Assembly: GCA_963575645.1 (NCBI GenBank)
Contig: OY754466.1
Location: forward strand, 38,720,001-38,784,000
Source of the DNA: Xanthostigma xanthostigma
Lineage: Eukaryota > Arthropoda > Insecta > Raphidioptera > Raphidiidae
Direction of reading: 5' to 3'
Length of the DNA: 64,000 bases
Shown here in pieces: positions 19,401 through 59,508 of the stretch. The notes under the pieces were generated by a model. That model had not been told where the DNA came from. It searched no databases and saw only the letters and a list, made by a program, of their open reading frames with translations. Both the position numbers and the translations under genes were made by a program. Each line of letters starts with the position of its first letter. Position 1 is the stretch's first letter.

Positions 19401-20590
19401 CCTCTTTGACTATTTAATAGAAATGGACAGCCATTGTGCTTAAACGTGCTTAAAATCAAACTATTTTTTTTAAATGTCAAAGGCGTCTGGTTTAGCGAGT
19501 AACTTCATCCTGTTAATTTTGATCGTACATCGTAAAAAGTCAATGTCATTATTTTTTCATTAAGTACCTATAGTTTCAAATTATCGCCCGATAAACTCTT
19601 GATGTCTCATGCAAACTTTACGCACATTACATAAAAATCGGGCCCACTGAACCTTGATATTTAATTCTCGTTTACAGAATTGAAGTAAAGCTGTACAGTG
19701 TTAATCAACTACGTGAAGCAATCGAAAACAACAGCAACACTGTCCTTAGGACATTGTTTGCTCAACACTCATTCGTAGGCATTGTTGGTCAATGCCAGGT
19801 TCTACTTCAGTACAATACGGAATTGTATCTTTGTCAATTGGAGAAACTTGCCGAAGAATTGTTTTACCAGTTTCTGATATATAATTTTCAAAATTTTGAT
19901 ATAATTAAACTGAATCCTCCATTACCCATATATGATTTGGCTATAATAAATTTCAATCTACCACATTTGGAATACGATGAAGAAAGGTACGGTCCGAAGG
20001 AAGAACTATCCAGATTAATAAAAAGTTTGCTAGTCGAAAGGAGTGATATGCTTAACACTTATTTTTCAATGGAAATTGATGCAGAAGGGAATCTAATTTC
20101 AATTCCTCTATTGTTAGGTGAGTTACAAACTAAATTTACAGAGTATATACCCTTGGGAACCAATTATTTGATTACCAGGTCTATCACGAATTGAGTGAAT
20201 AAACCGGAAGTCTTCTCATAAAAGCCCAGGACTCGAGGATGCAAGTGCATCTTTGGTTTCCAAAAGTCCCCGTCCTACCCAAATGACCGATGTTATTTCT
20301 TCTTCGCAGATAACTACCTTCCGGACATGCGTAATCTACCGACATACATAACGAAAATTGCACTTGATGTGGATTGGGAAAATGAAAAAGAATGTTTTGA
20401 CACCTTTTCAAGACAGACTGCAATGTTCTATTCAAAAATTGCACAGAATAATAACGAATGGGTCATAGAACACGTTCTTCTTCCTGCTATTAAACAGTAC
20501 TTTCTGCCGCCAAAACAGTTCGCACAAAATGGCTACGTACTTCAAGTTGCCAGCTTGCCTAATTTATATAAAGTTTTTGAGCGATGCTGA
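13442..20590 (+). CDS. Mlh1: DNA mismatch repair protein MLH1
   Basis: MutL homologue; as MutLalpha with PMS2 it couples mismatch recognition to strand incision in the nucleus. Nine exons join in phase: 13442-13554, 13861-13924, 14845-15044, 15447-15740, 16279-16412, 18488-18714, 19168-19376, 19678-20117 and 20310-20590. They encode 653 residues (human 756). The N-terminal GHKL ATPase is intact: NRIAAGEV, catalytic-type Glu33 in [18 protein letters not shown] and [18 protein letters not shown]. The transducer domain has [12 protein letters not shown] and [15 protein letters not shown]. The C-terminal dimerisation domain includes HSFVGIVGQ and DYFSLEID-like [12 protein letters not shown], and ends in VFERC, whose Cys helps complete the PMS2 endonuclease site. 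The missing ~100 residues are nearly all from the flexible linker (about residues 345-420). Several introns hold hAT MITEs. Confidence 0.97.
14255..14755 (+). repeat. Dispersed repeat in MLH1 intron 2, related copy at 44885-45500
   Basis: The segments TTAACACGCTTTTATTAG, CAAATTAATTTTCACCCATT and GGATGTCCCCCAACT recur around 44885-45500 in the opposite orientation. Parts of each copy are internally inverted, so the family is probably palindromic. Smaller relatives occur near 880-1000 and 62290-62330. No coding frame. Confidence 0.55.
16728..17236. mobile_element. hAT-type MITE in MLH1 intron 5
   Basis: Starts CAGTGGCGTAACTAGG and ends ATTTACGCCACTG, flanked by perfect 8 bp duplications CACAGGCT (16720-16727 and 17237-17244). 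The ends carry G/C-rich runs of C. It encodes nothing. Confidence 0.88.
18083..18198 (+). repeat. 48 bp tandem repeat, about 2.4 copies
   Basis: Units begin CAAGCCG and contain CATTGTTAGAATGA; the second starts at 18131 and a partial third at about 18179. The units differ at several positions. It lies in MLH1 intron 5. Confidence 0.6.
18825..19090. mobile_element. hAT-type MITE in MLH1 intron 6
   Basis: Starts CAGCCCCGGATCT and ends AGATCCGGGGCTG. Identical 8 bp flanks GTATCTTG (18817-18824 and 19091-19098) mark a hAT insertion. No coding frame. Confidence 0.88.
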
Positions 20591-30065: not shown

Positions 30066-33000
30066 TCAACATATGACGCAATTCTTTTTAACAATTGAAT
30101 AATCAGATTTTTTACGTTTGCTTTCTTTTTCATTTAATTCAATACTATCTTTGGCCATCAGCAGATATGTTTGTTTTTCCAAATCGTCTTTAGTTTCAGA
30201 CGATAAATTAAAATCATGTTCACTTGTCAAATTTTCATTTTCATTTGAATTAGTTTTCAGATAATCCGACAAAACAATTGCACTATCCTCATCAACTGAA
30301 CAATCAATCGAACTTAAAATTTGTTCGCATTCTGAACATAATACATCGTGACAAATGTATTCATCGCCTATTACAAAATCCGATGAATCGTTATCCAAAT
30401 ATATTTTGTTTTCATTCGATTCAGTCTCATGGCATTTTATTGAATTATCCGATGTGGAATTTATTAGACTATCCATGTCTGATTTCATTTTTAATCGATT
30501 TATATCGGTTTCTGACGAACTTTTTCTCACTTTCAGAGCCAGGTCCCTTGAAATCGTTTCATGTAACCGTAATTTCAAATCGTCTATCGCTGGATTTTCA
30601 AAAGCAGCCTCATTAAGATAAACTCTTATATCGTTTAAAAGATTCAAATTGATTTTTTGCACTCTATCGATTGTTTTGTAAATATCCAATGATTCTTTGT
30701 TTATCAGCGGCCGCCATTTTATTAAGTTAGTAGTCGGAACACTTTGTCTACTCGAAATATTCATCACCGTATCAATTATTTCATTTACAAAATTTTTCAT
30801 AACACATACAACTTTCTTTTCCTCAGTTTTATTTTTTGTCTGTTCACTTTCACCAGAAACATCTGTTTTAACACCGTCAACAGTACATTTTAATTCTTTC
30901 TGTGAATTCTTTAATTCCGTTATTTTTTGTTTTGAATGCCGGGTAACCGCAACTTTCAATTGCAAATTTGAAAAATGCGTTAATGTATTTATACCGGGAA
31001 AAGACCAAAACGTTGGATATCGTTTATCGTGATCACTGAAATCTAGACATTCGTCGAGATCGCTTTCAAAATCATCTTCGTATTCGACAATCATATCGTC
31101 GTCCTGTTGATTTCTTGGCGAAACAAACAAATCGGTGATATACGCTTTGTCAACAATGTACTCTGAATCGAAATTGTAATATTTTTTAGTTAATTTCAAT
31201 TCGAACGGCGCGAAGTTATCGTTTGCGCCCAAATATTGTTTTTCCGAATGCGCAAAAGGTTTTTCAAAATTTAATTCCGATTTTCTCTTAATATCAACCG
31301 AACACACACCGATATTTGAATTGTCTTGAATGGGTCGTGAAGACCCAAATTTATCTGAATCCGTTTTTTGAATATCAAAACTTGGAATGTAACTAGGAAG
31401 AGGTGTAAGGTACGAGTTCAGGAATCCGGAATATTTATTTTCTGTAGTAAAAAGAAAATAAAATGAGTAGAATACAGAAAAGAAATTAGTTTTGGGTTAT
31501 TTATTGTTAAAATCTTTTATTAACGTCTGAATAGAACTCTTCAAATAAATAAAATTGTCGACCAATTTTTCTCAGACCATATATTGACAAAAAATAATAA
31601 AAATACAAATCAATATAACACAAGATGACGTTTCGATCCGGATTTGGATCATCTTGTGTTATATTGATTTGTATTTTTATATTATTTTTTGTCAATATAT
31701 GGTCTGAGAAAAATTGGTCGACAATTTTATTTATTTATTGTTAACTTGTTTATATAATCGAAGTCACCATTTTAGTTAAACGAACGAAATAAATCAATCC
31801 CAAAAATACTTATTTTGATCTTTTTTTGACTCTCAATATTCCCTTCATTTCCATGACTGATTTATAATATTTATAATATAATATTTATAACCAGAGATAT
31901 TACGGATGTTTTATGTCGTAATTGGGTTTTTTTAATGAGTTACATCAGAATTGGTTTTGAAGTTTTGGTGTCGTTTCAATATAATTATTCAATTATCACA
32001 CTCATTCAGTAAAACAAAAACAAAACACGACCAAACTGATGCAGTGCGTGAGTGAACAGCAAAACAAATGCGCGGGAAGGGACGTATATGCACTGGGTGC
32101 GATTTACCGCAAGCGAAGATCGACGTTAATCATCCGTAATAATAATTTAAAATATGGACACGGTATTTAACGTGAAATAGTATCGAATTATCCACAGTAT
32201 CAAAATCGAATCTCCGTAACGTCCCCGCTTTTTACACTGATTTCGCTGCAACTGTTCGACACAAACAGACCTAATTAAAAACTGTCATCAAATAAAAACC
32301 TGTTTTGTTTGACTCACCTATAGTTATATCGGCAGTGGCACTGAGAATAAGCGCAAGGCACTGAGCAACGCTGGCGTCCGGAGCACAACAGAGCGCCGGA
32401 GTCAGACCATTGTTATCGGTTGCAAAAACGTTAGCACCATGAATAAGCAATTGTTCGGTCACTCTGATGAGTCCATTTCGAGCAGCAATATGTAAAGGTC
32501 TATAAAAAAAGAAACACGCTAATTATTATATACAGTGTAACCTCTCATAATGGACACCTCTAATGAGCGGACAGCTCTATTAGGCGGACACTATGTGATA
32601 GTCCGGAATGAAGTACAAGAGAATTCCATAAGACATAATCTCTCTTGAGCGGACTCTCTCTTGGGCGGACGCGGACGCAATATTTAAGTACAAAACTTGT
32701 AAAATTCTCTCTTAAACGGACACAAAAATAAAAATGTTGCAACACGTTGCACTATAAAAAAATGATTTAGGCGAATTCATTATCATCAATAATAACTTAT
32801 TAGTGGAAGATGATGATGACACCTCTTTTAACAAAATTGTAAAAAAAAGGCGACAACCTGACGTTAGTTGAATCTGACGAATCCGATGAAGAAATAACCA
32901 TAACTGATCAATCTAATGCTATAAGTTATCAGCAGGCCATTGGTATGGTGAAAACAATTCAAGAATTTGCCAAAACTAAAGGAGATTCAACAGCAATGCA

Positions 33001-36000
33001 GATGTTATCTGACTTGGAATTACATTTTCAAGACAACATGCTTTAAACTAATACGCGTCAAACTACCATAATTGATTTTTTCAAGCCAACTAAGCTATAC
33101 TTTTTTGTTTGATTTTTTGATTTCATACGTATGTATATTAATGTATATGAGAAAACAATAAAATTCTACCCTATTATGTAAATAAAAAATATGTATGTAC
33201 ATATGTAGTATGCATGTATGTACATATACATAATAATACGTGGTTTTTAATTTTTCCCATACGCGGACACCTCTCTTAGGCGGACATATTTTAATAGTCC
33301 CGAAGGTGTCTGCTTAAGAGAGCTTTCACTGTACCTACATCCGCGGATTAAGTTGCTAACAAAAAGCTGCAGCTTCGGAACAAAATTTCTAAAGTTACGG
33401 TAGACATAGTTATGTCCAAGGTAAACAGTTATATCCACAGTGGATAGAGTTACGTCCACAGTGAACACAGTTGTATTCACGGTGGACACAATAATGCGTT
33501 TTTTGTCTTTGTAATAGCTCTCACAGCCGTAAGCTATAATTTTTGTGGCGGCAAATACAGTGTTGATGAACGCTCATTTTGTACAGGGCGGCAAAAAATA
33601 GCGCTGGCCCTCTGTACGAGAAAAATGGTATTCATGACGGAAACGGAATCTTGCTTTCCCGGGCCGAAATAGTTGAGCCTATCCGCCCCTGCCGACGAAC
33701 ATAAAAGTGTCAATTTTTTTTTTTTTTTTTGTTTGTTTTATGGCCTAACTCTTGTTATTGGCCAGTTGCCGATATCTTGATCTAATTCTGTCGTTGTCTG
33801 TTATAATTTAATTTGACTACACTTCAAATATTGATAAATATAAATACTTACGTTTTAAGTTCTTTGTTAACTATGTTGACGGCCCCTTCTGCAGGCTTAT
33901 TTAACAATGCTAATGCAACGTGAGTATGTTTACGGGCGCATGCAACATGAAGAGCTGTATTTCCGTAATTATCTTGCTTCGAGATGTCGGCATCCCACTT
34001 GATCAAAATTTCTATGCAAAAGGATAAAGGTAAAATGCGTTAATTAGTTAAAATGAGAAACAATTAATATTTTAAGTTATACTTCTTTTGGCGCGTTATG
34101 AAAAAATGATAAGAGTGAGTTATTTTGATGCGCGCGCACACTGTAACATCAAAATTAACAGGATGAAGTTGCTCGCAGAAAAAGGCTACCAACTGAATAA
34201 AGGTAGACACCACGTTTACATGCGCGTAGCGTCTAATAGCTGTATTTATGTTGATATCACTTTAGTCCTTTCTTTTATTTAAAAAAATTATTTGTGGGAA
34301 ATAAAAAAATTCGTTTTTAATCACGCCAAAGAAGTCTCATTACGCGGTACTCGACAAGTATTTAGCAAGCACCAAGTAATTTGTATGAAGTTGTGCGTTC
34401 AGCCCGATGCGCTACTCCTACTTAGTCAGTAAAGTTAAAAGCGACGAGCAGTTGATGCCGAGTGTTTATATCGGCGCGGTATACTATTCGAAAGGTGGCC
34501 GCAATGGCAAACACTTTTGTGGCTGCTAATAAAGTAATAGATAGACACTCACTGGACGAACGCGTATGTTATACAGTGTACTTGTACTGCATGTACCGAG
34601 TAAAATTTGCCAAGCGGCCGGTTTTAAAAGATCGGTGCAGCCAACCCATAGATATATATATATATTAATAGATAGCGGATGCCTATCCTTGAGCATTGTG
34701 CGGAATGGTTCCAATTAGAAGCCATTTTGTACGTGGAAAACGCCGTAAAAAGCGCGCGGGATTCAAAAATATTAAATATTCTATAATATGATGTTAATGG
34801 AAAAACAATAATACTCGCAGTAAACAGTGATATTCGCTCCAAAACCTATTTTTATATTGAAACGTTTCAATATAAAAATAGGTTTTGGAGCGAATATCAC
34901 TGTTTACTGTGAGTTTTGTCGTTTTTCTCAATAAAATCATATTACAAAATAATTAATATTTTTGAATCTCGCGCGCTTTTTACGACGTTTTCCACGTACA
35001 AAATGGCTTCTAAAAGGTACAGGAGGCGCTAGTGTATCCGCAATCTATTAAATATACATATCTATGAGCCAACCAAATACACAAATATTCCTACAAAACT
35101 TAAATGTTTTCTGTACCTAAAGCATTCAGTTGTCCATTATGAGCCGCCGCTATAAGTGGTGTTTTTCCAGAATGGTCAACCTCGTCACTTTTTGCCCCAT
35201 GCGTTAGCAGCAATTGAATACAATCAGAACTGTTGTGAAATGCCGCTAGATGTAGAGGCGTTCTACCTCTTGCATCTCGTAAGCCTATAATATTTGTTGC
35301 TCCGAATGCATTTATTAATAGTTCCAAGCATTGCTCACTACCCTGAAACCTGTAGTCATGAAAATTAGAACCAAAACCAACACTAAATCCAAAACATCGT
35401 CCACGTAGTCGATGCGATCATTTCGCAAAAATTCAGTACAAGATAAATAAATTATATGGGCAAAAAAAAAACCAACACAATCAGAGAAATTATTTGGTTT
35501 TCTTTGATCTTGAATCATTTTTTTTTTTTTTTTGCACAATTTCCCTGACTAATTTGATCCCACACTCTTTTTTTTTAATTTTTATGTTGCCACCGTGAAC
35601 AAATTTACGATACAATTAAAAATTAGTAATGTCTGACAAAAACAAATGACTTAATCACAACTAATAATAGATAAAAAAATATTACATACGCCGCGCAGTG
35701 AACTGGTGAAAATATATTTCCTTCTAATGATTTGAACACATTTTTCTCCAACAAATACTCCAAGCAAGCAGAATACCCTGAAAAATATATTTTGTTTTAG
35801 TGATAGAAAAAAAATGAAAGTAGGAAAGCCAGACACAGACACACTGAAAATGTCCGGACATTTTTAAAATCCAATTTTCTCATAACCTTCCAAAAATTAC
35901 TAAACATAATCTATAGGCAGTGTGCACGAAGCCTACTAGCGCCGTTAGTGGGTAATAGAGAATTATTTAACTCACTTTTTATGGAAATCGCGACATGTTT

Positions 36001-39000
36001 CTATGGTGATAAGTCAAAAACTTTAGTTGGCCACGATGTGTAAAAAAAAATGCTGTTCATTTTATATACAATAAAATTCAAATTGTAAACCATTATATAA
36101 ATAGCATAACATAAAAGGTACGTGAGAATTATTTATTTATCAATGATGACGTACAATATACAAATAATTAATTTGTTTACACTGACAGCATGACGTCAAA
36201 TTATGGCACCAATGATTTTATTTTACTTAAATCGCTATCAGCGCAACAGCCCGGAACACAACATGCATTTCCAGATCGCTTAGTTTTGCCTATGTTTTCA
36301 TTGTAATTAAAAAACTTTTTGAGGCATAATGACAGGCCTGATACACACTGATAAAACCACATATAGGGGAGACACTTTTCAGAATATCAAAATTTGGCAC
36401 GTCTCAGGGAACTGATCACTGTGCCTACGTTATGTCTAAGTTCTATTATTAGTATAGGTGATATTGCAGTTACTATCATAAACATTCCATTCGAAATCAA
36501 TGTCAGGACGCTTGGCAGAATGAAATGAAAATAACATGAAAACATTACCGTTATAGCAGGCCCAATGTAAAACAGTACAGTGCTGATTATCTTGAACTGC
36601 AAGCGCAGCCGGAAGCATTGTACCACAAGCATCGGATAACGCTGTAAGACACTGCAGTTGTCCACACGCTGCCGCTAAATGAAATACGGTTTTACCATTG
36701 CAATCTCGAAAATCTAATCTGGCTCCATCGGACAACAACATTTCTACACATTCTACATTGCCTTGCACCACCTGAAAAATATATATCGCTGATAAGAAAA
36801 TCATATATATTAATACGCTAAGGTTAAAGATGTTTGCCTCCCTTTTTAGAAAAAACCTCACAATTTCTCCACATAAATTATATACCATTTTACAGATAAT
36901 TGCTTGCTCTACTGACATCGACAACTAAAAAATTTATTATTGCTTTTTTTTTGTAAATTAATTAGCAGCAACGCTGAACAACGTCAGCTATCTAACGGCT
37001 TTAATTTTGAAACAGCGAGCAACGCTGAACAACATCACAGCAATGCTGCATGATGCCATCTGGCTTAGCTCAACGCTTTTGCTACTTGCGCCTCTATATG
37101 ACAATTTTAGTAAAATATTTCTTCGATCTGTCATCTGAGCTTCATATTGTAATACAACAAAAAGAAGAACGTTATAAGCAGTGTGCAAAATTAGAAACGA
37201 ATTGAATACCTGCAATCATATTTAAAAAATAATTTTGTAAAGTGATAATTATTATACTTATTTAGTGCGAATAATTCGCACAGGTCACACTAGTGTCATA
37301 AAACTAATTAGAAAGACTAAACGAGCAGCATTGTAAATTAAAGTTTACGGAAGACTACACTATAATCGAAACAGCTTATTAAAAATCCAGATTTATTTTC
37401 CATTTACATTACTTCTAAAAAAAATTGTTTCAAATATATTATTAATCGTAAAATCACGCCCGTAATACAATTTTTAAAATTTTTGACGTGATAACGTCTT
37501 ATAAATTGATGAATCACGTCAAAATAAAAAGATGAAACACCGGCTGCATGCACGAAAAAGTGTAACGTTCCTAACGTTACTAAATGAGCGACTAGTATGC
37601 CTTCGGTAATTTTGAAGCAGATATCATCAACCGATTGAGATGAAAATTTGTATACACGTTTAGTTTGAATGACAATGCATGGTTAGCTGTGTGACGTCAC
37701 TCTAAATCCAATATGGCGGACTTCTAAAGATGGCGGACTAATTTTATTTTGCTTTTCTACAATATGGGTATCAAATGAAAGGGCTTGCTGAGGAATAACT
37801 CGAAAAATAAAGTGACGTCACTCTAAATCCAATATGGCGGACTAAGTTTTTGACGTGATAACGTCTTATAAATTGATGAAACACCAGCTACACGCACGAA
37901 AAAGTGTAACGTTCCGCCTGACCCTGTGCGTGCAAGCGAGAGCGCAGTAATGTATTATTAAATATGATATTCGAGCGGAATACGTTATCACGTAAAACTA
38001 TCGTCCGTAAACCGACTTTACAGACAACCAATTTTTAAAATCAAGCAGTCACCATCGTATCGAGCAGTCATATAGTTGGGCAGTTTCAACACATATACTG
38101 ACTTCACGTGAACGCGACATAGAACAGAAAAACACTCGATCAGTTGACAGTGACTGCTTGAATGGTTCGTGTATGTTGTTCGATGATGAACTGCTGAAGC
38201 AGACCGTTCACGGCGGGCCTCAGAGTACCAAAAATTTTCAAAAAGCAAACCAACCGCTCGAAACAGAGGAGTATGTTGATCGCTATCAGCAATATTTGGA
38301 TCAGCTCCGCACTTTCGCAATTTGGCAACACAATTATTATATCCCGACGCCACAGCGAGAGCCAATGCCGTGCGACCTTTAACGTCCACTCTATTAACAA
38401 CAGCTCTATCTTCTGTATTATCTAAAAGCAAGGTGAGACAATCTATGTGTCCACCCGACACCTGAAATACAAAACATGTTTTAAGATCAACACTATTTAG
38501 TAATCAAATCTTTGATTAACGTCTGATTAGAACTCTTCAATAAATAATTTTATTTATTGAGGACAATTTAGTAATATTACTATTAGTATTTTAGTTCTAC
38601 CATGCGCCATCTACTCAGCATTTGAGGGAACTATCCTATGCGAACCGTTTCTTATGGTGCGCTGCGTATTTTTGTAAATATTTACTGTTTATAACATGTC
38701 ATTGAAAAATCGAAGAAAAAGCACAATATGTGTTGTGCAGTACCTAATGATGTTAGTAACTCAAGTGCAAATGTCGAAATTAAATTATCAGGTGCTACCT
38801 TAGAAGGAGCCTATATCTTTCAAATATATTTTCTTTTCTTTTTTTGTTAAAAAATGTACAGTTATTGTAATTTTGAAAGAAATAAATTCTATAATAAATA
38901 AAATTATCGACCAATTTTTCAGACAATATATTAACAAAAAATATAAAATTAATACATTAACGTTTCAATCCGGATTTGGACCTTCTTCAGAATTGATCTA

Positions 39001-42000
39001 AAAAATATGAAAATAATTAATATTTAAAATCTAATTCGCTTTTTATAGAATATTTCAAAGTTATTTATAATAAAAAGCGAATTAGATTTTAAATATTAAT
39101 TATTTTTATATTTTTTAGATCAATTCTGAAGAAGGTCCAAAACCGGATTGAAACGTTAATGTATTAATTTTATATTTTTTGTTAATATATTGTCTGAAAA
39201 ATTGGTCGATAATTTTATTTATTGAAGAGTTCTAATCAGACGTTAATCAAAGATTTAAATAAATTCTATTCTATTCTAAATGGAAAAGAGATAGGCCTCA
39301 GCTGTATAAACACCGTCGATTTCATGCGGTTTCTCTTTCAAATTTGACGTTCGCATGCAGAAAGCAACAATGTTAACCTGATCTCTACAGCTCGCATCAT
39401 TGATTCTGTCACATTTTACGATGTGACCAGCACTCGCGATTTTTTCTCTTCAATATAATTACGTTAAGAAGGATTAGTATCACCTTACCGATAAATTTCT
39501 TCCTCGTAAATATAAATTTTAAATAACACATCGAAACCTCGATACTGTCAATGCAAACGCTTCGCATAGGGCGACCATACCGAATATCTTGAAATGGGTT
39601 CCGCGTCCAGGTAAAATCCCAATAGATCACGCGCCCCCACTAACGCTATTGTATAAAGAAGTACATACCGCACAGTGTACAGGAGTTCGTGAAGTGATAT
39701 CATCTGCTATGTTCACGTGTGCTCCACATCTCAACAACAACTGCACGCACTGACGATTACCTTTGACGGCTGCCAAATCTAGAGGCGTTTTACCCGAGTT
39801 ATCCCGTAAATCTACATTACTGAAGAGAGGCAGAAGCAAGCGTAATATGTCATTTTGACCGTGATATGCCTGCACACAAAATATCACATCTATTATTTTT
39901 AACGTAACAATTAATATCATTGATTATTTACTGTAGAACTGGTATAGCGCGACCAATTCTTGTTATACTTTGCCGCACTAGTGTGTAATGAGTCATTTTA
40001 CATGCTTGTATACATGTATGTAAAGCAGCTATTATTAGTAATAGTGACGCAAACTTTGTACTTTATGTATTTTGTTTGTAATTAAGGTATTATCACGAGC
40101 AGTGACGTAGTGTTAATAGTGAGGTTACTCGAGCGATATTACAATACTGTAATTTTTGCACGTGCCTCCCATAAAATAGCTAATTTTCACTTCACAATAA
40201 GTATATATACAGCGTGTCCACGGAAGTTCTTTACAAATGGAATTTTTTTTTGTTAATTATTGAAGCAAAAATTTTTTTCTGTGGAAAAGTTCTGCTTCGT
40301 CCAAAACCTCTAAAACACCAAAGAAAATTTTCTTCAGCCTAAAGTTATACGAGGGAAATCAAAAAGTTTTATTTGACTAAAAATAAAAATTATCTGCGAT
40401 ATTCAAGATTTTCGTAAAATTAGTTACATAATCAAATTTAATTCAAAATAATAACATAACTAGCTTCTAAGTAATTATTTATTCAGCATTAAAAATCAGA
40501 ATTCAACATATCCTCCATCTCTCTCCATACAAAGAACGGTTCTCCTTCCAAAATCCGTCACTGAATTTCGAATCATTGTAGAAGGAATTTGATGGATTTT
40601 TTCGGTGATAATCCTTTCCAATTGATCAATATCTTGAAAAGGTCTTTCAGAGTACACCATTTTCTTTAGATAGCCCCAGAGGAAATAATCTAGGGGTGTC
40701 AAATCGGGTGATCTGGCTTTAGTAAAATATAACTTTTTGATTTCCGTCGTATAACTTTAGGCCGAAAAAAAATTTATTTGGTGTTTTAGAGGTTTTGGGC
40801 GAAGCAGAACTTTTCCACAGAAAAAATTTTTGCTCTAATAATTAATAAAAAAAAATTCCATTTGTAAAGAACTTCCGTGGACACGCTGTATATGACAGTT
40901 CAGATTCCGCCATATTGGAATCTATTTGGACTGTTTATGAAGACAACGCCTACTTTGCTTCTCTGTCGTTCATATGAAATTATTGCAACTGATAGTCCAG
41001 TTAAAATAAACATTTCAATTCACTATAATCTGTTACATAGAGCTGAAAATTGGTACATGTCTTAAGTACACTATTACAAATCCCCACCGATCCTTATTCA
41101 AGGTCAAAGGTCAAAATTATCGGTTTTTATGCACTTTTCTCGTAAACGGTAAATATTAAGACGAAAATAGTAGATCATGCAATTGTCCACAAAAACTGTT
41201 CTTATAATTTTTTTGTACGAATCACTATTCCTGAGATATGGGACCAAAATGTCTATGTATGTACTGAACGTATTTATCAAAAATAACGTTAAATATTAAT
41301 ATGCATATTAGTATTTTCGATGTATGAAATTACAATTTCAAAAGAATGGTGATTCGTAGGGAAAAAAAGTATAAGAAAAATTCTTGTAGACAATTGCATG
41401 ATCTACAACGTTTGTCTGACCTATTTTTAGATAACATTTACCGTTTACGAGAAAAGTGCAAAAAATCAATACTCTTAACCTTTGACCTTGAATAAATTTT
41501 TTAGCAAATGTGGGATCGGTGGGGACTTTTGATATTTCATTTGTAATAGTGTACCTAAGACCTGTACTAATTTTCAGCTCTATGTGTATTATTTTAAGCC
41601 TACCACTATTTTTTTGTCTATTTTGACCGGACTATGAGACACATGTAACTATTGGATTGGTGAAATCGCATTACTTTAGTCTAATAATTTACGCACTCGT
41701 GCGAAATGGATCAATTTAATGAAAATCAACTATTTTATAAGAGGTTCGTGCAAAAACATTAATTATGAACTGCAAAATATGACTTCATACTAGAGCCGGA
41801 TAATCCTGGCAGGTAATGGGTTTAAAAATAAACAATAACAAAAACAAAGGAGATTTACAGCTAGATGAAGCGGTGTCAGACGTGGCATTCCCTCTCCATA
41901 CAATGTATACTTGGTGTTGATAACTGCCAATAAATAGCTAAGCCCTGTTTGGTTACCGCCTGCCACTGCGTAATGGATTGGCGTAAAACCGTGATTGTCC

Positions 42001-45000
42001 TTTAAATTCACATCGGCTTTATGTTGAATTAAATACTCAACACATCTGCAAAAAGTATTTCGGTGTTAGTTTAATGCTCGACTAGAACGAAAAAGAATCA
42101 CCGACAAATTAAAAAAAAATAGATAGCTACAAAAACATTTTTAAAACAAAACAAAGTTCACGTACTTTCCTTCAAGGTCGTGGGCCGCAGCAAAATGTAA
42201 AGCACTGAGACCATCGACGTCCTGGGCATTTACAGGACTGCCAACTCCAACGAGTGTAAATAAACAAGCGTAACGGCCACCCGCGGCTGCATAGTGCAAC
42301 GGCAGTCTACTACAAGCGTCCGCCAATTGAAAGTTGGCCCCTGAGCTCACAAGTAAATCTAAGCATTCCACTGCCCTATAATACAAAACTTCTTTATACA
42401 CACTTTCAAATTAGAAGAGCGATTCCTAAACTGATTTAAAAACATGCGTGAGACTCTCGCTTCTTAGGTTCTAGCATTTGTCGACGAATATTGCATTTGA
42501 AGGGTACACGGGAATAAGGCGGTTTGTCAAAAAATGTAAATTGTGCAGGAGAGCATTTTGAAGTGTTTAAGATCGTACCATTTACTTGCTGGTGCATTTC
42601 TTTCAACGCTTATAACTTTTGACCTAGCGTATTCTTGTCTAAAATGAATACACCAACAGAAAGGTACGACTTTTGGCTACAAGATGGCATAAAAAAATTA
42701 ATTTCGAATTTTTACTGACAAATCGCCTTCTTCCCGTGTACCCTTCATTTGTGTTCCATTTCAAAATAAAACTGAAATAAATTATTCACAATAAAACTTT
42801 TCAACACAGGAAAAACTTGTAGGTTATGCCGAAGTGTCATTTGTACACAATAGAGGGTGCGTTCCGATATTCACCGTGAGTACTGACGACGTGACGTCAG
42901 ACAGTAGAGCTGCAGAATCGTTCCTATATTACTTAAACACCCTCCATCGTACAATGTCACTGCTATAACGGAACGCAATCCACAGTAGCTGCTGTGGATG
43001 CCTCACGTCGCGAGCGGCAGTAATCGCAGCAGGAAGTGACGACAAAAACAGTGACGTCATGTGATCACGAAAACGATCTGAGAGTTTACTGTGGCATATA
43101 TCGGAACGGCATTCGTAGTACTCAGAGTACTGGCAGTGAATATCGGAACGCACCTAGAGACATCGACTGCATGCAAGAGGGTTAATTCTCGAAACGATGA
43201 CACTAGATCTCACATGCGAAAGCCGAGTTTCACATGGGACAGCGTACGCGAGACCTTGTGGCATAGTTCGAAGAATAGCCACCCAGAGATCTTTGTTCTC
43301 TGCAGCCGACACACGCAACCCGACAACAGACGAGGTTCACTAGATGCTTGTGAGAAAATGCTACAGAGAGAGTAGAAATACAGAGAAAGTAGAAACGATT
43401 CTCCCACTCTTTACTTTCGACTGCCGGTTGAGGTCAGAGAAGGGGAAGCGTTTCGTTTTTTGTCTGACCCAGGCCAATATGCTCTACCGTGCCTAAGGAA
43501 ATAGATAAACGAGCTTTAATTTCAACTTTGTCATGATAACTACGAAATTATTAGTTGGCAATTTTACTCGTTCACTTCCAGCATAAGGAAAAAATAAAGT
43601 CGTTAGATAAACTTGGACAGCTGATTATAATGAAACATAAAGGCCACTGCACACGAGGCTAGAAACGCTGCTAGAAATGCTGCTAGCTGGTAGGTTGGGT
43701 ACGAAGCTGGAAATGACGTCACTGCGGGCTGCCTTGCTAGCTCAGAAGATAGGTTTTAAAATTAGAACAGGGGCTTTTTTCCCTGCTAGATTTGTTGCTA
43801 GGTGAGAGCAAGAACCAATCAGGAAGCAGGTCACTTGAACAAACGCCCACATAGCGTCATTCTGCTCAGTCAGACAACAGACACGTTTTGCTCTGTGTTT
43901 ATATTCGAACTGTCAGTGCGCGCGCACCAGATCTATCCACAAAACACACTTGAAAAATAATCTCGTGTGAAGCGAGCACTTAACAGCAATCAAGAAAACC
44001 AGCGCTAGAAAACTAGTAGGCAAATCTAGCAAGGAATCTAGCAGCGTGTGCAGTGGCCTTAACTAAAAATTGTAGTTATTGAGTCAAACTTCAGACCGCT
44101 TGACACATACTTGTCGAGCTGTCACGTAAACCACGGCGTGAAGCGAAAATAAACCATTACTTTGATAAACGCTATTAGAGATCATGGTTTATGTGAAAGC
44201 GAACCACAAGGAAGATATTTTATATACGTCTCTCTCTATACATAAAGTAGTGTGACTGTCTTCTTCGTCAACGAATGGCGTTTTGTGTTCAGAGTTTAAA
44301 ACACAGATTTCTTTAATACTTGTTTGCAATTACGAGGAAAGATATAAGAACGAAAAAGTTTGTGTACTTCATTTGTTTACGTCTGACGAATAATACGCAC
44401 TGTTCAAAATTATCAAATTTCGGTACGTGGGACGACCCTATTGTAGTTCGTTTTGCAGAACGATGTTGATTGGCCAAAGTGGCACTAAAGAAGCAATGAA
44501 AAAACAACATACCCTTTGAAAGCAGCGCAATGTATTGGCGTTTTTCCAGTATTATCCTGAGAATCTATGTCAACGTTATGTTGTAAAAATTTACGGCAAC
44601 ATTCTACATAACCTGACAAACAACACATGTGCAACGGTGTGCGACCTGCATAGCTGGAAATGGCAAAAAAAAAATTAATTACTCACAGAATCTGCCTGAA
44701 AAATAATTAATAATAGTCTGACTGTTAAAATTCGATGGGGTGTTGACGTTTGTGAAAATATCTCAGAAATGAAAAACAATTCTGACCACACCTTTACGGT
44801 TTGATGAAATCTGGTTCGCAATTGTTTCTGTATAAGAATATAAGCAATAATTATAATTAGAAAAAAGTTAGGAATGTGCTTCAGGACGGTAGGTTTTATT
44901 TTAAAATATAGTTAAAAAAAAAAAAAAAAACTAAAAAAACACGTTTTTATAGCAATGTGCATTAAACAGTAAAAAATAATTTTTAAATATGTTGTTAATT

Positions 45001-48000
45001 CTTTTGAATTAAAATGAGAATGGCTTATTCAAAAAATTAAATTGTATCAAGTTGGGGGACATCCTATCACCGTTGAACAAAATCATTATATTCAAAAATA
45101 ATTTTTTACTTTTCAGTGCACGTTGCTACAAAAGCGTGTTTCTTAGTTTTTTTAAACCATAATTTGAAATTTGTCACTAAAAACTACGCCTACAGGTAGA
45201 CGACGCAATATACAGCACTGCATCGCTCGTTAGTGCTTACAGTAATTTTTCTAAGTAATCAATTTCTTTATATACTTTTAAATATTTATATTAATTATTG
45301 TATTGTCATGGGTTCTTAATACATATGCAAAATTTCAAATTATTCCGACGTCTGGAAATGGGTGAAAATTAATTTGAAAGATTTCTTTACATGCATATTA
45401 CATATACAAGTGAAAGCTATAAAAGCGTGTTAATAAAAATAGTGGAAATCGGTTGAGTAGCGACAGCTGAAGGACGGTTGAAAGAAAACGGTTAAAATGT
45501 AAAGTTTAATTATTTTGTGTAAGACTTACCCTCTCCTATTCGGATCAGCCCCATGAGCCAGCAGATGATTTGCTAACGATTCATGGCCATTAAGCGCAGC
45601 TATGTGTAACGCCGTACAACTGTTTTTATCTACTAAATCTACAATAGCACCTGGAAATAATTTGCTTATTATACAAACGATACACAGTTTCAATAAAATA
45701 TTCTGGAGCAAGACCGTATTATGGTGGAGCCGAAGGATCTACTGCTGTTTCGTCTCAATCGCGTACGGAGATAAATAAATTGCAGATTATATTATACTCT
45801 CAACAAATGAGTGGAAAAAACAGTAAGATCATTTTTTCACAGTGAGAACAAACCGATTATTCTAAAACAAAATGGCGAACTAAAACAAAAGAGAGCACAC
45901 ACCTCTATCGATTAGCGTTTTTGAGCGCGTGAAGCGGCCATGGAGTGCTGTGTTGTGTAAAGGTGTGCGTCCATCATCCGATTGAACGTTGACATTCACA
46001 CCTTCCCTGAGTAATATCTCCATACTCTCTTCTCCGTACGTACAGGACGCCACTATGTGTAGCGGAGTCTATAAACATTCAATTTATCCTCGTTATTTAC
46101 AGCAAACTATTTCATATCTAGAAATTCAATTTATTAGCATCAAATGAACTATATTAATTCCAAAATAATGAGTTTCACACAATGTGTAGAAGTTTATTAA
46201 AAAATACGCAATGATTATAAATAAACACACAGCGCTGTATTGCGCCATTTTTCAAAAAAAAAAACATGTTTTCACCTGTCACAGTTATGACTCTATAGGT
46301 ATATAGAAAGGCGCGCGTATTCGAATGCAACGTTCTGTCAAAATTTCAAAGCAATCGGTGAAGAATTTTCGGAGATTTAAGATTTTTAACAAACGAACAT
46401 TTACATATTTTTTATTTATAAAGATTAACGTTTCCTACCTGTCCTCTATAGTTGGTAAGATTAATATCAGCATGAGCATGAATGAGATCCCCGATGAGTG
46501 CATCGTGTCCATTGAGACAAGCGAGATGCAAAGGCGTATTGCCATAAGAATTACGTATATTTATGTCGGCCCCATGTTCTAACAATACTTGCACAAGATT
46601 GCCATGGCCAACACTGCAAGCCACGTGAAGTGGAGTATATTGCTGCAAAAACATTGTCATTATTAATATATAAAACAGCAACGGACTCCTAATCTGTAAT
46701 CTTGTTTTCATGTAGGTAGAGTTTTCTTAAGTTTTTCCCGGGTGTCTGATCTTTTATATATTTAATCAGAGATCTAGCTAAAGTTTGTTATTAATGTTGT
46801 TAAGACACATCCGTTGTTACAATACAATAAGTTCGTTCCAAGCAGCCAGCGAACGGTTTCGAAAGCATGCGCAGTAGGTAAAACGAAGCTGTTAGTGGCG
46901 ATTTTAGAACACGTTTTACCTACTACGCATGCAGGCGACGGTTTCGAAACCATTCGCTGGCTGCTTGGAAAAAACCTTATATTAGAAAAATTTACTTTTA
47001 AACGTTGTTACTGTCGGGACACGAACCCAAATCTTTCCACTTTCGCGGCGGAATGAGTTACCATTACTCTACACTCATATGCTCATTTTTAAGTAGATTT
47101 GAAACTGCTTTTTTGCATTATGCGAGAGCTAACTGATCTTAACGCTAGACATGAACCTTAACAATTCCAATCAAAAATGTAGTTTTTCCATTTATTAATC
47201 AGTACCTAGTCAGACAAATATAATTAGGACCACTAATTCGGAAAGGCGCGTTAGACTGTCGTAAATTAACAATCTTAATTTAACTAGACCTCTAACTTTA
47301 TAATTAGTCTTACGAACTATACCGTAGTGAATATTTGAAATATTCAACAATATTAAAAAATATATTTTTAATGTTGCACGATTATATTGGACTTTAAATA
47401 CGGTTGAAAATTCCTATAGTTGATTAAAATCCTAAACTAAGCTTGACCACTCCTACTTCTCGTGTATGAATATCTATCAATGCCAAAATAAGTATAGAGT
47501 AAAATACGCGCCACGAATTTAAAAGGCTTGGAAGTTAGATGCGAATGCGGGCTTGCGCTTGTACAGTCTGTTGAAAAACTACAAACTCGTAACTCAACAA
47601 AACTAAAATAGCAATAACAACTTGACAATAGCGTACTCGACTGTACTTTAAAGCAGGAAAGCGACAAGTGACAAAGGCAACGAGCGATCGCGGCCAATCA
47701 CCGACGAGCGCACGTTCCGTGCAAGTAGCTGAGAGGTGGTGGGAGTATCAACGGCTCTAAAATGTGCCTTTGCGACGCTGTTTGTGACTAACTTCCGAAC
47801 CTTTTAGATCCGTGGCACGTATTATACTTTTTATCCAGATTGAAACAGTTACCTCTCTGTCCTTAACGCAAACATCGGCACTATAAGACAATAACAATCT
47901 CAGCATGTCTTCGTTTCCATTATAAGCCGCCCAGTGTGTTGGACGACAATCGCGTTTATCAGCAGCGTCAATGACAGCACCGCGCATCAACAGGGCTTCA

Positions 48001-49161
48001 GCACAGTCGACGCTTCCATGGTATGCGGCGTGGTGTAGCGGAGTGCGACCTGCACGATCCGGCAGGTGACATGCCGCCCCGGCAGAAAGCAATTGTTCCA
48101 CAAGGCCCGAAGAACAACCGGCGGCCGCCGCCACATGTAAAGGTGTTTGCCATAATCTATCTCGACACAACGCTTCTGCTCCGTGATTTAATAGTATGTT
48201 TACAGTTTCCTAAAAAAAAATATTTATAATGAGACAGGAAAAACAATTAGATTAATATTAATCTGATCGCCCACGGCTGACATCAGGTTTGCAGAGAAAA
48301 TCATTGAGAGAAATTTTTGAGGGGTTAACCGAACTGAAAATTCTGACGTCATTTGAGATCATTTTAATTCCGCGCAATATTATATAACTCAACTGTCACG
48401 AAAAATAAAAAGTAGATACTTTTTATGTTATTGGGTACAAATCAGGGACGCATATTTAAAGTTTCTTTTATAGATTATGAGACATCTTCCATGCAAAAAG
48501 TTCAAAATATTTTCTATGACCGATAATGAGCCGGTACTAATAATAGGCTACAGATATATCGGTATCGGTGAAAAAATCATATCGGTCGATCCCTAGAAAC
48601 AAATTGTAATAGTATCAGTTGGAAATGTTCTCTTGGAGTCAACCTACTGAATACTGGTACATCATTGAAATCTACGTAAGAAAAAATATATAGTATTACC
48701 TCTGATCGAGAACAGCAAGCTCTATGAAGTGGTGTAATCCATTTACTGTCTTTGACGTTAACTCTAGCTCCATTTAATAGCAATAGTTCGGTCATCTGCG
48801 GGTCACCTTTGTAGGCAGCCGCGTGTAGCGGTGTTCGTTTTTCAGTATCTACAAACAACAAAATCAGATATGTATCTAGTACAATGAATCTATTAAGGAA
48901 GCAAACAAGTAAACGGCATACCACTCCAATTGACTGCATCTTTATTTTCTTGAAGAAGTGCTTTCAAATCTTCATAATCGCCTCTTATAATTGCCTGTAT
49001 AATTGGAGGCTAAAAACGTAAGAAAAGAGCTACGTTTCATTCAAAATAAAATATAAAAACAAATGTTTACAGAATCAAAGCATTTTGATTTAATGATCTA
49101 ACCTAATTTTTACAATTAATTCAAATAAGATTACCTCATCTAATAGTTGCTGGATAACCAT
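30066..49161 (-). CDS. PP6 regulatory ankyrin-repeat subunit (ANKRD28/44/52 family), CAAX-ending form
   Basis: Scaffold subunit of protein phosphatase 6. Eighteen exons join in phase: 49135-49161, 48922-49009, 48700-48848, 47853-48209, 46439-46642, 45903-46068, 45530-45650, 44513-44653, 42166-42375, 41859-42045, 39669-39869, 38255-38461, 36549-36771, 35690-35777, 35117-35349, 33852-34011, 32318-32499 and 30066-31441. They encode 1439 residues (human ANKRD28 1053). The start MVIQQLLDE precedes [19 protein letters not shown], as in the family. Ankyrin repeats (pattern TPLHxAAxxGH) fill residues 1 to about 980 without a gap; examples are [22 protein letters not shown] and [11 protein letters not shown]. 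The last exon adds about 458 residues rich in Asp, Glu, Ser and Lys, with [17 protein letters not shown] near its start. It ends in basic KRKKSDYS then CVIC, a prenylation-type motif. Introns hold pogo, mariner, fold-back and MITE insertions. Exon 12 uses the weak donor GTTGGT. Confidence 0.93.
31511..31730. mobile_element. Fold-back element, copy 2 (220 bp)
   Basis: A near-perfect palindrome with arms AATTGTCGACCAATTTTTCT and its complement, and a centre containing ACGTTTCGATCCGG and CATCTTGTG. The 14 bp target TTATTTATTGTTAA is repeated exactly at 31497-31510 and 31731-31744. It lies in the intron upstream of the last ankyrin-gene exon, 56 bp from its acceptor. Confidence 0.82.
32533..33331 (+). 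mobile_element. pogo/Tigger-like transposon remnant
   Basis: Starts CAGTGTAACCTCTC and ends GAGAGCTTTCACTG, with TA on each side. Related GGACACCTC and GGCGGACA repeats occur near both ends. The interior retains only the C-terminal part of a transposase-like frame (32850-33043), with an acidic stretch, [15 protein letters not shown] and a stop, then out of the frame [11 protein letters not shown] as in pogo/Tigger proteins. It is not autonomous. It lies in an ankyrin-gene intron. Confidence 0.75.
34639..35074. repeat. Long fold-back palindrome, centre 34863
   Basis: The arms meet at TTGAAACGTTTCAA. The inner ~60 bp each side are almost identical (AAAATAGGTTTTGGAGCGAA). Further out, arms share GCCATTTTGTACGTGG, and the outermost match is GCCAACC with ATAGATAT. 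It lies between the ankyrin-gene exons at 33852 and 35117. No transposase. Confidence 0.75.
37481..37998 (+). repeat. Duplicated MITE segments (GACGTGATAACGTC family)
   Basis: TTTTGACGTGATAACGTC starts at 37481 and again at 37847. The second copy ends with inverted ACGTTATCACGTAAAAC at 37982-37998, giving a 150 bp TIR element. Between them GTGACGTCACTCTAAATCC plus ATATGGCGGAC occurs at 37691 and 37812. The first copy lacks its right end. The block lies in an ankyrin-gene intron. Confidence 0.6.
38505..38565. mobile_element. Fold-back element, minimal copy 3 (61 bp)
   Basis: Carries the family end ATCTTTGATTAACGTCTGAT followed by a short hairpin around AAATAATTTTATTTATT. The exact 10 bp duplication ATTTAGTAAT flanks it (38495-38504 and 38566-38575). 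Confidence 0.7.
38581..39624 (-). mobile_element. TIR element, inverted copy split by a fold-back insertion
   Basis: Read on the minus strand it matches the complete element at 27743-28283 from start to end (39624 to about 39270, then about 38880 to 38581). The middle is interrupted by the fold-back element at 38893-39256 with its target duplication. Removing the insert leaves a continuous match. Confidence 0.7.
38893..39256. mobile_element. Fold-back element, long copy 4 (364 bp)
   Basis: Palindromic arms of about 150 bp carry AAATTATCGACCAATTTTTC and its complement. The central part of each arm reads CTGAAGAAGGTCC then GGATTGAAACG on one strand. The 13 bp target AAATAAATTCTAT is repeated exactly at 38880-38892 and 39257-39269. 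One outer end is about 35 bp shorter than the other. Confidence 0.82.
40210..40888. mobile_element. Mariner-like element, internally deleted
   Basis: Starts CAGCGTGTCCACGGAAG and ends CTTCCGTGGACACGCTG, with TA at both flanks. The inverted ends are long (about 170 bp, imperfect). The centre keeps a transposase C-terminus (next entry). It lies in an ankyrin-gene intron. Confidence 0.88.
40496..40735 (-). pseudogene. Mariner-like transposase C-terminal fragment
   Basis: The minus-strand frame contains [19 protein letters not shown], which holds the last catalytic Asp region of Tc1/mariner-like DDE/D transposases. It ends [11 protein letters not shown] and a stop. The N-terminal DNA-binding domain and the first two catalytic acids are absent, so it cannot be active. 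The family resembles the N-terminal fragment at 25656-26120, but they need not be parts of one element. Confidence 0.75.
40990..41632. repeat. Large fold-back element (about 640 bp)
   Basis: Arms of about 220 bp, inverted and imperfect, share CCCCACCGATC, CAAGGTCAAAGGTCAAA and CTTTTCTCGTAAACGGTAAA. The centre is unique. It lies next to the mariner-like element in the same intron. No coding frame. Confidence 0.65.
42854..43155. mobile_element. MITE with 15 bp inverted ends
   Basis: AGGGTGCGTTCCGATA at the left and TATCGGAACGCACCT at the right bound 302 bp of non-coding DNA. TAGA occurs at both borders and may be the target duplication. Confidence 0.65.
43639..44061. mobile_element. MITE, AAGGCCACTGCACACG family, copy 1
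   Basis: AAGGCCACTGCACACG and CGTGTGCAGTGGCCTT are the inverted ends. Subterminal CTAGAAACGCTGCTAG-like repeats and the motif GAAATGACGTCACTGCGGG also occur in the related copy at 50131-50960. Confidence 0.7.
44885..45500 (-). repeat. Dispersed repeat related to 14255-14755
   Basis: This region shares TTGGGGGACATCCTATC, ACTACGCCTAC and AAAAGCGTGTTAATAA with the copy in MLH1 intron 2, mostly in reverse orientation. It lies in the ankyrin-gene intron between exons 7 and 8. Confidence 0.55.
46235..46420 (-). repeat. Inverted partner of the repeat at 5770-5965
   Basis: Shares CATGTTTTCACCTGTCAC and CGCGCGTATTCGAATGCAAC in reverse orientation with 5770-5965. It lies just outside the ankyrin exon at 46439-46642. 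Confidence 0.55.
46828..46980. mobile_element. Short MITE
   Basis: CCAAGCAGCCAGCGAA and TTCGCTGGCTGCTTGG form the ends, with inner inverted GTAGGTAAAACG and CGTTTTACCTAC. The central motif resembles the one at 62480-62638. Confidence 0.65.
47003..47086 (-). repeat. tRNA-like sequence, probable SINE head
   Basis: On the minus strand TAGAGTAATGGTAACTC resembles a tRNA A-box region and GGGTTCGTGTCCCG a B-box, at normal spacing. The acceptor ends do not pair well. It abuts the MITE at 46828-46980. Confidence 0.4.
47496..47826 (-). mobile_element. MITE (GCGCCACGAATTTAAAAGG family), copy 1
   Basis: Inverted ends of about 35 bp (TACGCGCCACGAATTT on the left, GATCCGTGGCACGTA on the right). The element is nearly identical in structure to 52733-53062, in opposite orientation. 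It lies 27 bp beyond the donor of the ankyrin exon at 47853-48209. Confidence 0.75.
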
Positions 49162-55381: not shown

Positions 55382-58069
55382 CTATAGAGGCATTTCGAAG
55401 TTGACATCCAGTTTGGCGTCACGAGCCAAACTCACGATATTGGCCAGTTTTACGGCCAACCGAGCTGCTTCGTCCAAATTGTCACAAGGAAGAATTTTAA
55501 GTCCTGAGGAAGCGATTAAAACTTTGGCATCATCCACATTTGTACCCTACAAGAAAATAGTTTAGCAAATCAATATTTGATATTATCGTTTCTGTCAGCA
55601 TTATGTTTACAAAATTCAAATTCAGAGTCATATATTATTTATTAATTACTGGCTGCTGCTACCCGCGACTTCGCACGCGATTGAAAAGAAACATGGCAGC
55701 GACAACAGTAACTCCACCGTAGTGCAGTACTACTTTTAAACAAATGCTTATACACTTCAAATTATATTTTTTTGCCACAAACTTTCCTTGATTCGTTTCT
55801 TGGATATGAAATAATTATTTAGGTCGTGTGTAATTCAATTTTACCTGAAGTCTGCAGACAATTGGAACTTTAAGTTTCAATTCTTTGGCTGCAGCAATAA
55901 TACCTTCAGCAATGACATCACAACGCATAATTCCACCAAAGATGTTGACCATTATTGCAAGTACTTTGGGATCAGCTGTTATAATTTTAAAAGCTTCTTT
56001 AACAGCTTGTGCAGTAGCTCCACCTCCAACATCCAAGAAATTGGCTGGTTCTCCACCGTGCAGTTTAATAATATCCATAGTTGCCATGGCCAAACCAGCA
56101 CCATTAACCAAACAGCCGATAGTCCCTAATTAATTAAAATCGTTATTTTTATTAATTGTAATATAGATAAAAATTTAACTGTAATCAAATGAAATTACCA
56201 TCCAGAGCAATGTAATTAAGATCAAATTTAGATGCAGCTACTTCTTTTTCATCCTCTTGTGTTAAATCACGGAGAGCAAATAGATCCTTTTGACGGAATT
56301 CCGCATTATCATCGAATCGAAATTTAGCGTCCAGGCAGAAATCTGAAAATATTGTTTTTGCTTCAAGATTCTAAAACTAGATAAAAACATAAGGAAACAA
56401 AAATCACATACAATTTCCTTCACCGTCTTCAGCATAAGGATTAACTTCAATCAATAAAGCGTCTTTCTCAATAAAAAGTTTGTATAGCTTCAACAACATA
56501 TCTGCTGTTTTCTCCTTCTGACTTCCAAGGCCAACCCTTTCAGCTATGTCTAATGCCTGCTCTCTTTCAAGACCCTTTATAATATCGATGGGCTCATAAA
56601 GTATAGCTTCTGGATTTTTGGCTGCCACGTCCTCAATGTTTACACCGCCTTGTGACGACGCTATTAGTACTGGGCCCTAAAATAAATTTAATTCAAAGTC
56701 TGTTTTAAATTACAAAAAAAAAATAATTATACATTACTAAAAATCACATACATTAAAAGCTCGTTCCATCATAACAGCAAAATAGTACTCTTTTTTGGGA
56801 AATTTTTGTTCAGTTACCATAACTGAATTGCAAATACGTCCTTTTTCACCCGTCTGCTTGGTAATCAAAAGATCTCCTAGCATTTTCCCAACTTTCTCCA
56901 TTGCTTCTTCAGGACTACAAAACACGTTTACAGTAAACACAATTTCGGTATAATATTTCTCGGAAACTTTTTTTAGTTTTATTCTAACACATCAAGTACT
57001 ACGAGTCAGTTGTTCTAACATAACGTTCAACTGTACATGAACTGGTTCATTTAATCTGAAGATTTTTGTTGAATCGCTAGTTAGGGATATGCGCGTATCA
57101 TTAAAAAACAAAGATAGATGATTGACAAACAGTGATTTACTATAAAATTGGCATAGTGCATAATCAGTCACTTTACATGTCTGTAAAGCAGCTATTTTCT
57201 AGAAGGTAATGCGAAAAATTATTTACCTTTTGACCATCAGTACACCAGCTATTTTTCCATTTTTGAAATGACCTTTGCCACGACCTCCTGCTAAAACTTG
57301 AGCTTTAAGAACAATGTCTTTTGTATTCAGCTTAATGGCTAAATCTTTAGCCTCCTGTGGAGTCTTAGCAACTCCAAATTTAGGAACTGGAATTCCTGCT
57401 CCTTGGAGCAAAGTGTAACTGATATGTTCATGGACATTTAAGTTTCGCGACTGTTGCGCTTGTGGTTTCCAGGAATTAACTGACCCCAAAATCTAAAATT
57501 AACGTTAAAATAGAATTCAAAAGCCAAATCATTTTAAGAAAGAAGAGTACAAATTTTTTATATTATGTAACAGGGCTAAGAATGGTTTTTTAAACTGCTC
57601 AATTGAACATAGCAACTACTTAGGTATTTTTGACAAAAATAATGACATTTCTTTCACGAATTATATTTTCGACTGTCAATTTTAATTTGTATAATAGGTA
57701 ATGCTTGCGTAGGAATATTGATTTCAGTAATTGACAGTGCGTAATACATAATTTTTCAATGCGAATCAGGAAAAAATGAGATCGAAGTTCAATTAAATTG
57801 TATAAATGTCATTTATATTTGTTTTTTGAGAAGTTGAAAAGTTTGGTTATATAAACACTCCTATTTTGAGACTGCCAACTGATGACCTAGGAACGCAAAA
57901 TATGCTTTTATGGTCATTTCGTTTTCTGGCCACAAAACACTTACATTCATTTCAAAATCTATTGACGGACCGTGTCATAAATAGCATTAAATGTCAAATT
58001 TCTTACCTTCGTTCCGTTCTTCAATACTACATTTTCAGCAAGGTTTATTCCTCGCAATAGAGTCGCCAT
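55382..58069 (-). CDS. SUCLA2: Succinate-CoA ligase, ADP-forming, beta subunit (SUCLA2)
   Basis: Mitochondrial matrix enzyme; with the alpha subunit it converts succinyl-CoA, ADP and phosphate to succinate, CoA and ATP. Seven exons agree in phase: 58007-58069, 57227-57492, 56752-56914, 56412-56676, 56199-56342, 55845-56125 and 55382-55546. They encode 448 residues (human 463). The N-terminus [20 protein letters not shown] is a plausible mitochondrial presequence. The mature part starts near [18 protein letters not shown]-grasp motifs follow: [27 protein letters not shown] and [15 protein letters not shown]. The ligase domain has [28 protein letters not shown] and [15 protein letters not shown], and the protein ends [19 protein letters not shown] and [11 protein letters not shown] fit SUCLA2 rather than the GDP-forming SUCLG2. 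No missing residues noted. Drosophila calls it skap. Confidence 0.96.
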
Positions 58070-58663: not shown

Positions 58664-59508
58664 TTAATCACTCTCACTATCACAAAATTCAGTCCAAACT
58701 GACGACGAAAGTTTACGACCTGTGTTCCTACTTTCATTAGTTTTATTTGAGTTAATTTTGTCATATTCAGTTTGACTATCGTCTTCACTCCATACAGAAT
58801 CTTGCTTCAAGTCTCGGGTATTTTCTGTTTTAAATGATTCAGAATTTATGCTACGAATGTTATTTTCAGATTTGTTGATATTCTCAAAATTAACATTTCT
58901 ACTTTTCTTTATAGGTTGTGTAGTGCTAGATTGCCCCTTTCTTTTGTTTTTGGAAATTTCTGGAGTATGATTATCATCAATGTCATCATCCTCTTCTTTA
59001 TCAGACAAAAATTCCATCCATTTACTCTGTTTTTTGAAGTTTTCTAATTTTCTGGAAGAACTTTCTTTAAACATCTGTTGTGACACTTCATTTTCGTGAT
59101 TAACAAATCTCAAATTATTTTCATATGGTTCAGTTACTTTGTCCACCTTATCTGAGTCTTCTAAGGCGGCCTCTTCTAGTTCTGATCGAAATTGGTTTAA
59201 TTTCTGAACATGCAAACGACAGTCTTTGCTAATACCCTGTCCGTATATCTGTTAATAAAACGTAAGTTGTAAATAAAATTTAATAAAAAAAACTTTACAA
59301 ATAATTCGGCTTACATTTTGAACTGACTGCTTCTCTCCACATATTTTGCATGTCCACTTGGGAACTTTTTTGACAATTTGTACCTAAGAAAAATATTTTT
59401 TGAAATAGACATATAATTTAAAATGCTTTTAAAAGATATATCTTTCTTAATTCTTACTTGAAAAAAATTGCATTTGAAACATTTTAGACAATAGAATTCT
59501 TGTGGCAT
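58664..59508 (-). CDS. MRNIP: MRN complex-interacting protein (MRNIP)
   Basis: In vertebrates MRNIP binds MRE11-RAD50-NBS1, promotes ATM signalling at breaks and protects replication forks. Three exons agree in phase: 59458-59508, 59315-59383 and 58664-59248, giving 234 residues (human about 343). The N-terminal zinc-binding module is complete: CLKC (Cys7, Cys10) and CKIC (Cys29, Cys32), with VPKWTCKICGEKQS and DCRLHVQKLNQFR as in the human protein. The rest is acidic, Ser/Asn/Lys-rich and likely disordered. It includes SKWMEFLSDKEEDDDIDD (human has a matching SRWLKYLEKD segment), a basic KNKRKGQ stretch that may be a nuclear signal, and WTEFCDSESD at the end. The name rests on the N-terminal module; whether this protein acts in repair here is inferred. 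Confidence 0.85.

Follow-up and report, generated by a model that had tools for sequence, protein, structure and literature searches.

A putative PP6-type ankyrin subunit gene of Xanthostigma xanthostigma with a long acidic tail and a candidate CaaX box

Ankyrin phosphatase subunits and CaaX ends

MYPT3 (PPP1R16A) and TIMAP (PPP1R16B) are ankyrin subunits of the phosphatase PP1 that are described as membrane-associated proteins whose CAAX end is prenylated, the prenylation being what takes them to membranes (PMC6737228, PMC3560227). TIMAP is reported to have 567 residues with five ankyrin repeats (PMC3560227), and a KVxF docking motif is described for the MYPTs (PMC6737228). The ankyrin subunits of PP6 have been proposed to target and regulate that enzyme (PMC2765987). 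Here we describe a gene from Xanthostigma xanthostigma (assembly GCA_963575645.1, contig OY754466.1, positions 38,720,001–38,784,000; this whole stretch of 64,000 nt is called the window) whose predicted product, like MYPT3 and TIMAP, is an ankyrin subunit of the kind that targets a Ser/Thr phosphatase and ends in a CAAX box. MYPT3 and TIMAP serve PP1, however, whereas the insect gene encodes a long PP6-type array and is an analog, not a member, of that group. We rejected its membership in the MYPT3/TIMAP (PPP1R16) family because its array is far longer and ANKRD28-like: 949 residues precede the tail, as against about five repeats and a total length of about 570 residues in that family. A scan of the tail gave no match to RVxF/KVxF, the PP1 docking motif that lies upstream of the ankyrins in that family.

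The predicted C-terminus also recalls anchors of the K-Ras4B type, in which a basic stretch adjoins the CaaX box (CVIM in K-Ras4B), but only 6 of the 14 residues in the insect linker are basic, and it is carried by a phosphatase scaffold rather than a GTPase.

The ankyrin gene and its last exon

As a yardstick for the array we used a hand-entered human ANKRD28 sequence rather than a database copy, and the genome searched comprised 623 Mb in 28 contigs. This genome has 78 matches to the odorant-receptor family PF02949, which we read as an insect hallmark. Sixteen minus-strand exons (Table 1) splice into a model of 1407 residues without an internal stop, and a local alignment of this spliced model matches the hand-entered human ANKRD28 at 472 of 993 aligned residues (human 38–1050). 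The likeness to ANKRD28/44/52 lies in the array upstream of the tail, which is colinear with that of the hand-entered human ANKRD28: the ankyrin exons align to its residues 36–981 one by one and in the same order, last repeat included. When the hand-entered human ANKRD28 was compared with the genome (44 of 202 candidates scored), four matches in the window reached 46–69% identity and the other 67 of the 71 matches listed 28–43%; owing to longer open frames, several of these 67 reach higher bit scores, and by identity the window gene is the best ANKRD28-like gene among the 71. The colinear exon order and the level of identity bear out the gene assignment of an earlier sequence-only reading and support the locus as a putative insect ANKRD28/44/52-type ankyrin subunit of protein phosphatase 6. 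Its boundaries are partly soft: no AG stands at the 5′ edge at 48852, several acceptors score low, the start codon was not found, and in the N-terminal region (49027–48926) a stop precedes PPII.

Table 1. Features of the putative PP6 ankyrin gene, in window coordinates
Feature	Position	Strand	Remarks
CaaX-type box CVIC	30069..30080	-	directly before the stop; a known motif class, plus PMC3017772
Polybasic linker	30081..30122	-	14 residues, 6 of them K/R; the KRKK inside is also a possible nuclear signal
Last coding exon	30066..31441	-	1376 bases; split Glu codon, 457 residues, TGA
Last intron	31442..32317	-	876 bases; contains a fold-back repeat element
Last ankyrin exon	32318..32499	-	64% identical to hand-entered human ANKRD28 929–981; donor leaves one base of the next codon
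Ankyrin exon	33852..34011	-	
Ankyrin exon	35117..35349	-	
Ankyrin exon	35690..35777	-	
Ankyrin exon	36549..36771	-	
Ankyrin exon	38255..38461	-	
Ankyrin exon	39669..39869	-	
Ankyrin exon	41859..42045	-	
Ankyrin exon	42166..42402	-	5′ end uncertain
Ankyrin exon	44513..44653	-	
Ankyrin exon	45530..45638	-	
Ankyrin exon	45903..46068	-	acceptor score weak
Ankyrin exon	46439..46642	-	
Ankyrin exon	47853..48209	-	
Ankyrin exon	48700..48852	-	approximate 5′ boundary; 48855–48691 shares 69% identity with hand-entered human ANKRD28 36–90
Probable N-terminal exon region	48926..49027	-	resembles hand-entered human ANKRD28 9–36 (also given as 4–36); approximate boundaries

The sequence-only reading had described a last exon open for 1376 bp whose first two bases complete the codon left by the preceding ankyrin exon, and both points held. 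The minus-strand exon 31441–30066 is open to a TGA at 30068–30066, and exon 32499–32318 ends with a lone G before GTGAGT, so that the split codon reads G plus AA (Glu), and 457 further residues follow before the stop. On splice scores with general weights entered by hand, rather than trained on Xanthostigma xanthostigma, the donor at 32318 shares the top score among the model's 15 donors. The acceptor is pyrimidine-rich (the sequence before the exon is TTTTTACTACAG, also given as TTTTCTTTTTACTACAG). Seven phase-compatible, stop-free joins lie no more than about 200 bases from the edges expected for the exons; the best is 32318 to 31441, at 15.2 (donor 10.5 plus acceptor 4.7), followed by one at 7.1. 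The first Met of the open frame, P0001, is its residue 116, and with none before it the exon needs an upstream exon. We regard the tail as very probably part of the PP6 ankyrin gene.

The tail exon is real and coding. Its surroundings (33500–29000) hold a longest open run of 476 codons; across 500 mononucleotide shuffles the longest run averaged 89.7 codons and never exceeded 150. When codon tables were built leave-one-out from the remainder of the tail, the tail frame scores highest among the three forward frames in all eight 57-codon segments and contains no stops, while the other two have 2–12 stops per segment. Its first 114 codons, scored with a table from the ankyrin exons and the rest of the tail, are only weakly coding-like (+2.0), but each of the five other frames scores below zero. 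At E 0.001 the 623-Mb genome contains a single copy of the tail.

Other endings for the gene were sought with a strict acceptor pattern over 32317–29500, a pattern that the 31441 acceptor itself fails. Three other sites emerged, giving ends of 65 residues (site 31703, in the fold-back element), 40 residues and 7 residues, and within this strict pattern none yields an end resembling a known tail. Read-through into the last intron would terminate the predicted protein there, as read directly from the sequence. A vertebrate-type C-terminus, searched for with the tail of the hand-entered human ANKRD28, had no convincing counterpart in the window; the best hit (E 0.62) lay elsewhere. Since this limited search gave no convincing alternative last exon, the tailed form may be the sole form of the protein rather than one isoform, as which it had originally been presented.

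The acidic tail

Among its 458 residues the tail has 83 acidic and 59 basic ones (net charge −24), and its charge–hydropathy value of −0.024, versus +0.217 for the ankyrin part, puts it near the border between folded and disordered proteins; it is possibly flexible. AlphaFold2 run on the tail alone was uninformative (pLDDT 33.7), the Pfam matches were all below cut-off (DUF7032, E 0.013; DUF7823, E 0.023), and a PDB search returned nothing better than E 2. No relatives of the tail turned up in the viral and prokaryotic contigs scanned. The last ankyrin exon likewise had no matches in the viral contigs scanned, and in the prokaryotic contigs it matched 26 loci, all with bacterial titles and none insect.

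The sequence-only reading had called the tail long, acidic and absent from vertebrate ANKRD28/44/52. Length and charge stood, and the absence can be affirmed for the hand-entered human ANKRD28, the one of the three compared. On that same comparison the insect protein differs from ANKRD28 by its 458-residue tail ending in CVIC; the hand-entered human protein has an end of about 70 residues that finishes DSDSETY, without a terminal Cys box. Separately, the tail contains three FxxP motifs (residues 59, 106 and 281 of 458, at 30591–31268), where about 0.5 would be expected from composition, in the form seen in PP4 substrates.

The CVIC box and a possible membrane anchor

A polybasic stretch followed by C-aliphatic-aliphatic-X had been claimed for the C-terminus, and CVIC-stop can indeed be read directly from the DNA, with the basic stretch stopping one residue short of the Cys. 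The box has Cys at −4, an uncharged residue at −2 and a terminal residue compatible with FTase, as judged from CVIC-stop in the sequence and hence for a predicted C-terminus in the cell. PMC3017772 places CVIC among the CaaX boxes made, in a study that tested 32 boxes attached to a GFP carrier bearing a basic domain, and reports that Cys-ending CaaX substrates are farnesylated by Arabidopsis farnesyltransferase (PFT), a result for the set rather than a value for CVIC itself. Since this plant enzyme farnesylates Cys-ending substrates, farnesyl would be the likelier lipid on CVIC if insect enzymes behave in the same way. Eight matches to PF00432 (prenyltransferase beta) lie above cut-off in the genome, at three places on contigs C12, C1 and C8, with three of the eight spanning stops; these places presumably represent three prenyltransferase beta subunits, as expected. 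We lean slightly toward a tail that would be prenylated at CVIC and would anchor the PP6 ankyrin subunit to a membrane.

How often such an end arises by chance bears on an alternative that we find doubtful but take seriously, namely that gene and tail are real while CVIC is the accidental, unprenylated end of a fast-evolving tail whose role is that of an interaction region, flexible or phosphorylated. Between about 0.2% and 0.6% of random C-termini fit a strict CaaX pattern (C, one of 13 residues, V/I/L/M/T, then S/M/Q/A/C/I/L/F), which was defined after the motif had been seen; many features were surveyed in the first reading, and the closeness of the tail to the folded/disordered border suits an interaction region. 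In the six frames of the window, this post hoc pattern precedes 12 of the 2132 stops with 20 open codons, CVIC included, and random draws from the tail residues produce it 1643 times per million. The combination with an adjoining basic stretch is rare, however: by the same post hoc standard CVIC alone among the 12, and thus at 1 of the 2132 stops, has at least 6 K/R in the 14 residues upstream, and random draws give box plus basic stretch 12 times per million. Chance is also countered by the presence of CVIC within the assayed farnesyltransferase substrate set (PMC3017772).

The basic end (KRKK...KK) might instead, or in addition to being a membrane-anchor linker, be a nuclear localization signal, which we think improbable. 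KRKK, at tail residues 442–445, is the sole match to the simple pattern scanned, and TIMAP combines an NLS with a CAAX end (PMC3560227); yet the stretch ends one residue from the CaaX Cys, which would be the position of a prenyl-protein linker. Still more improbable is an exon that belongs to another gene, or a tail spliced onward so that CVIC becomes internal. CxIC also opens RING-type zinc fingers, and nine donor-like GTs score above 3 inside the last exon (best 7.6), so splicing within the tail is possible. Ownership by another gene is opposed by the late first Met and by how strongly the exon joins the ankyrin gene in phase. Against onward splicing, the coding signal persists up to the stop, candidate poly-A signals occur from 29877 onward, and two patterns for a zinc-finger continuation found none in open frames of the same strand over 30065–20600.

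For the prenylated anchor that we favor, we infer the transcript, the farnesylation, the attachment to the membrane and the consequences for PP6. Cytosolic farnesyltransferase would place a farnesyl group on the first Cys of CVIC, and the farnesylated end would then be trimmed and methylated, as is usual in the CaaX pathway. Lipid and basic residues together could keep the ankyrin scaffold at the membrane, with the long acidic tail acting as a tether, and the SAPS subunit and the PP6 catalytic subunit would be held there along with it. The genome contains a SAPS gene (PF04499) on contig C4, with four matches above cut-off, two of them spanning stops. It is conceivable, although we would not quite expect it, that the Xanthostigma lineage has a constitutive lipid-anchored PP6 scaffold, with a farnesylated CVIC on a 458-residue tether, of an origin independent from that of MYPT3/TIMAP. 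If so, PP6 in some insects would be anchored to the membrane directly by a lipid, the same solution would have been reached twice, for PP1 (MYPT3/TIMAP) and for PP6, and a single Cys could offer a simple handle on where PP6 acts. The literature searched contained no paper joining 'regulatory ankyrin repeat subunit' with farnesyl and none joining ANKRD28 with 'ER exit sites', and ANKRD28 was absent among the matches listed for CaaX with ankyrin.

Several further elements lie in or around the gene. The fold-back element of the last intron (31543–31736) has 61-nt arms that are 98% complementary and 72 nt apart, and its relatives on 12 contigs, with at least 99 matches listed including itself (40 of 138 candidates scored), suggest a MITE-like repeat. 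Short degenerate tandem repeats at 32540–32670 and 33397–33490, in the intron upstream of the last ankyrin exon, are possibly a transposon remnant. Elsewhere in the genome are very long uninterrupted ankyrin frames, of 2869 and 3378 aa at C7:42836535–42841718 and of 1539 and 2153 aa at C11:9298668–9323966; the window gene, by contrast, is split. Within the window, C-terminal exons of MLH1 (Mlh1_C) at 19658–20590 on the plus strand are convergent with the ankyrin gene, and other minus-strand exons encode a FERM protein (4169–4771), an MRNIP-like protein (58667–59251) and a CoA ligase (55815–56129), the last presumably of the succinyl-CoA synthetase type.
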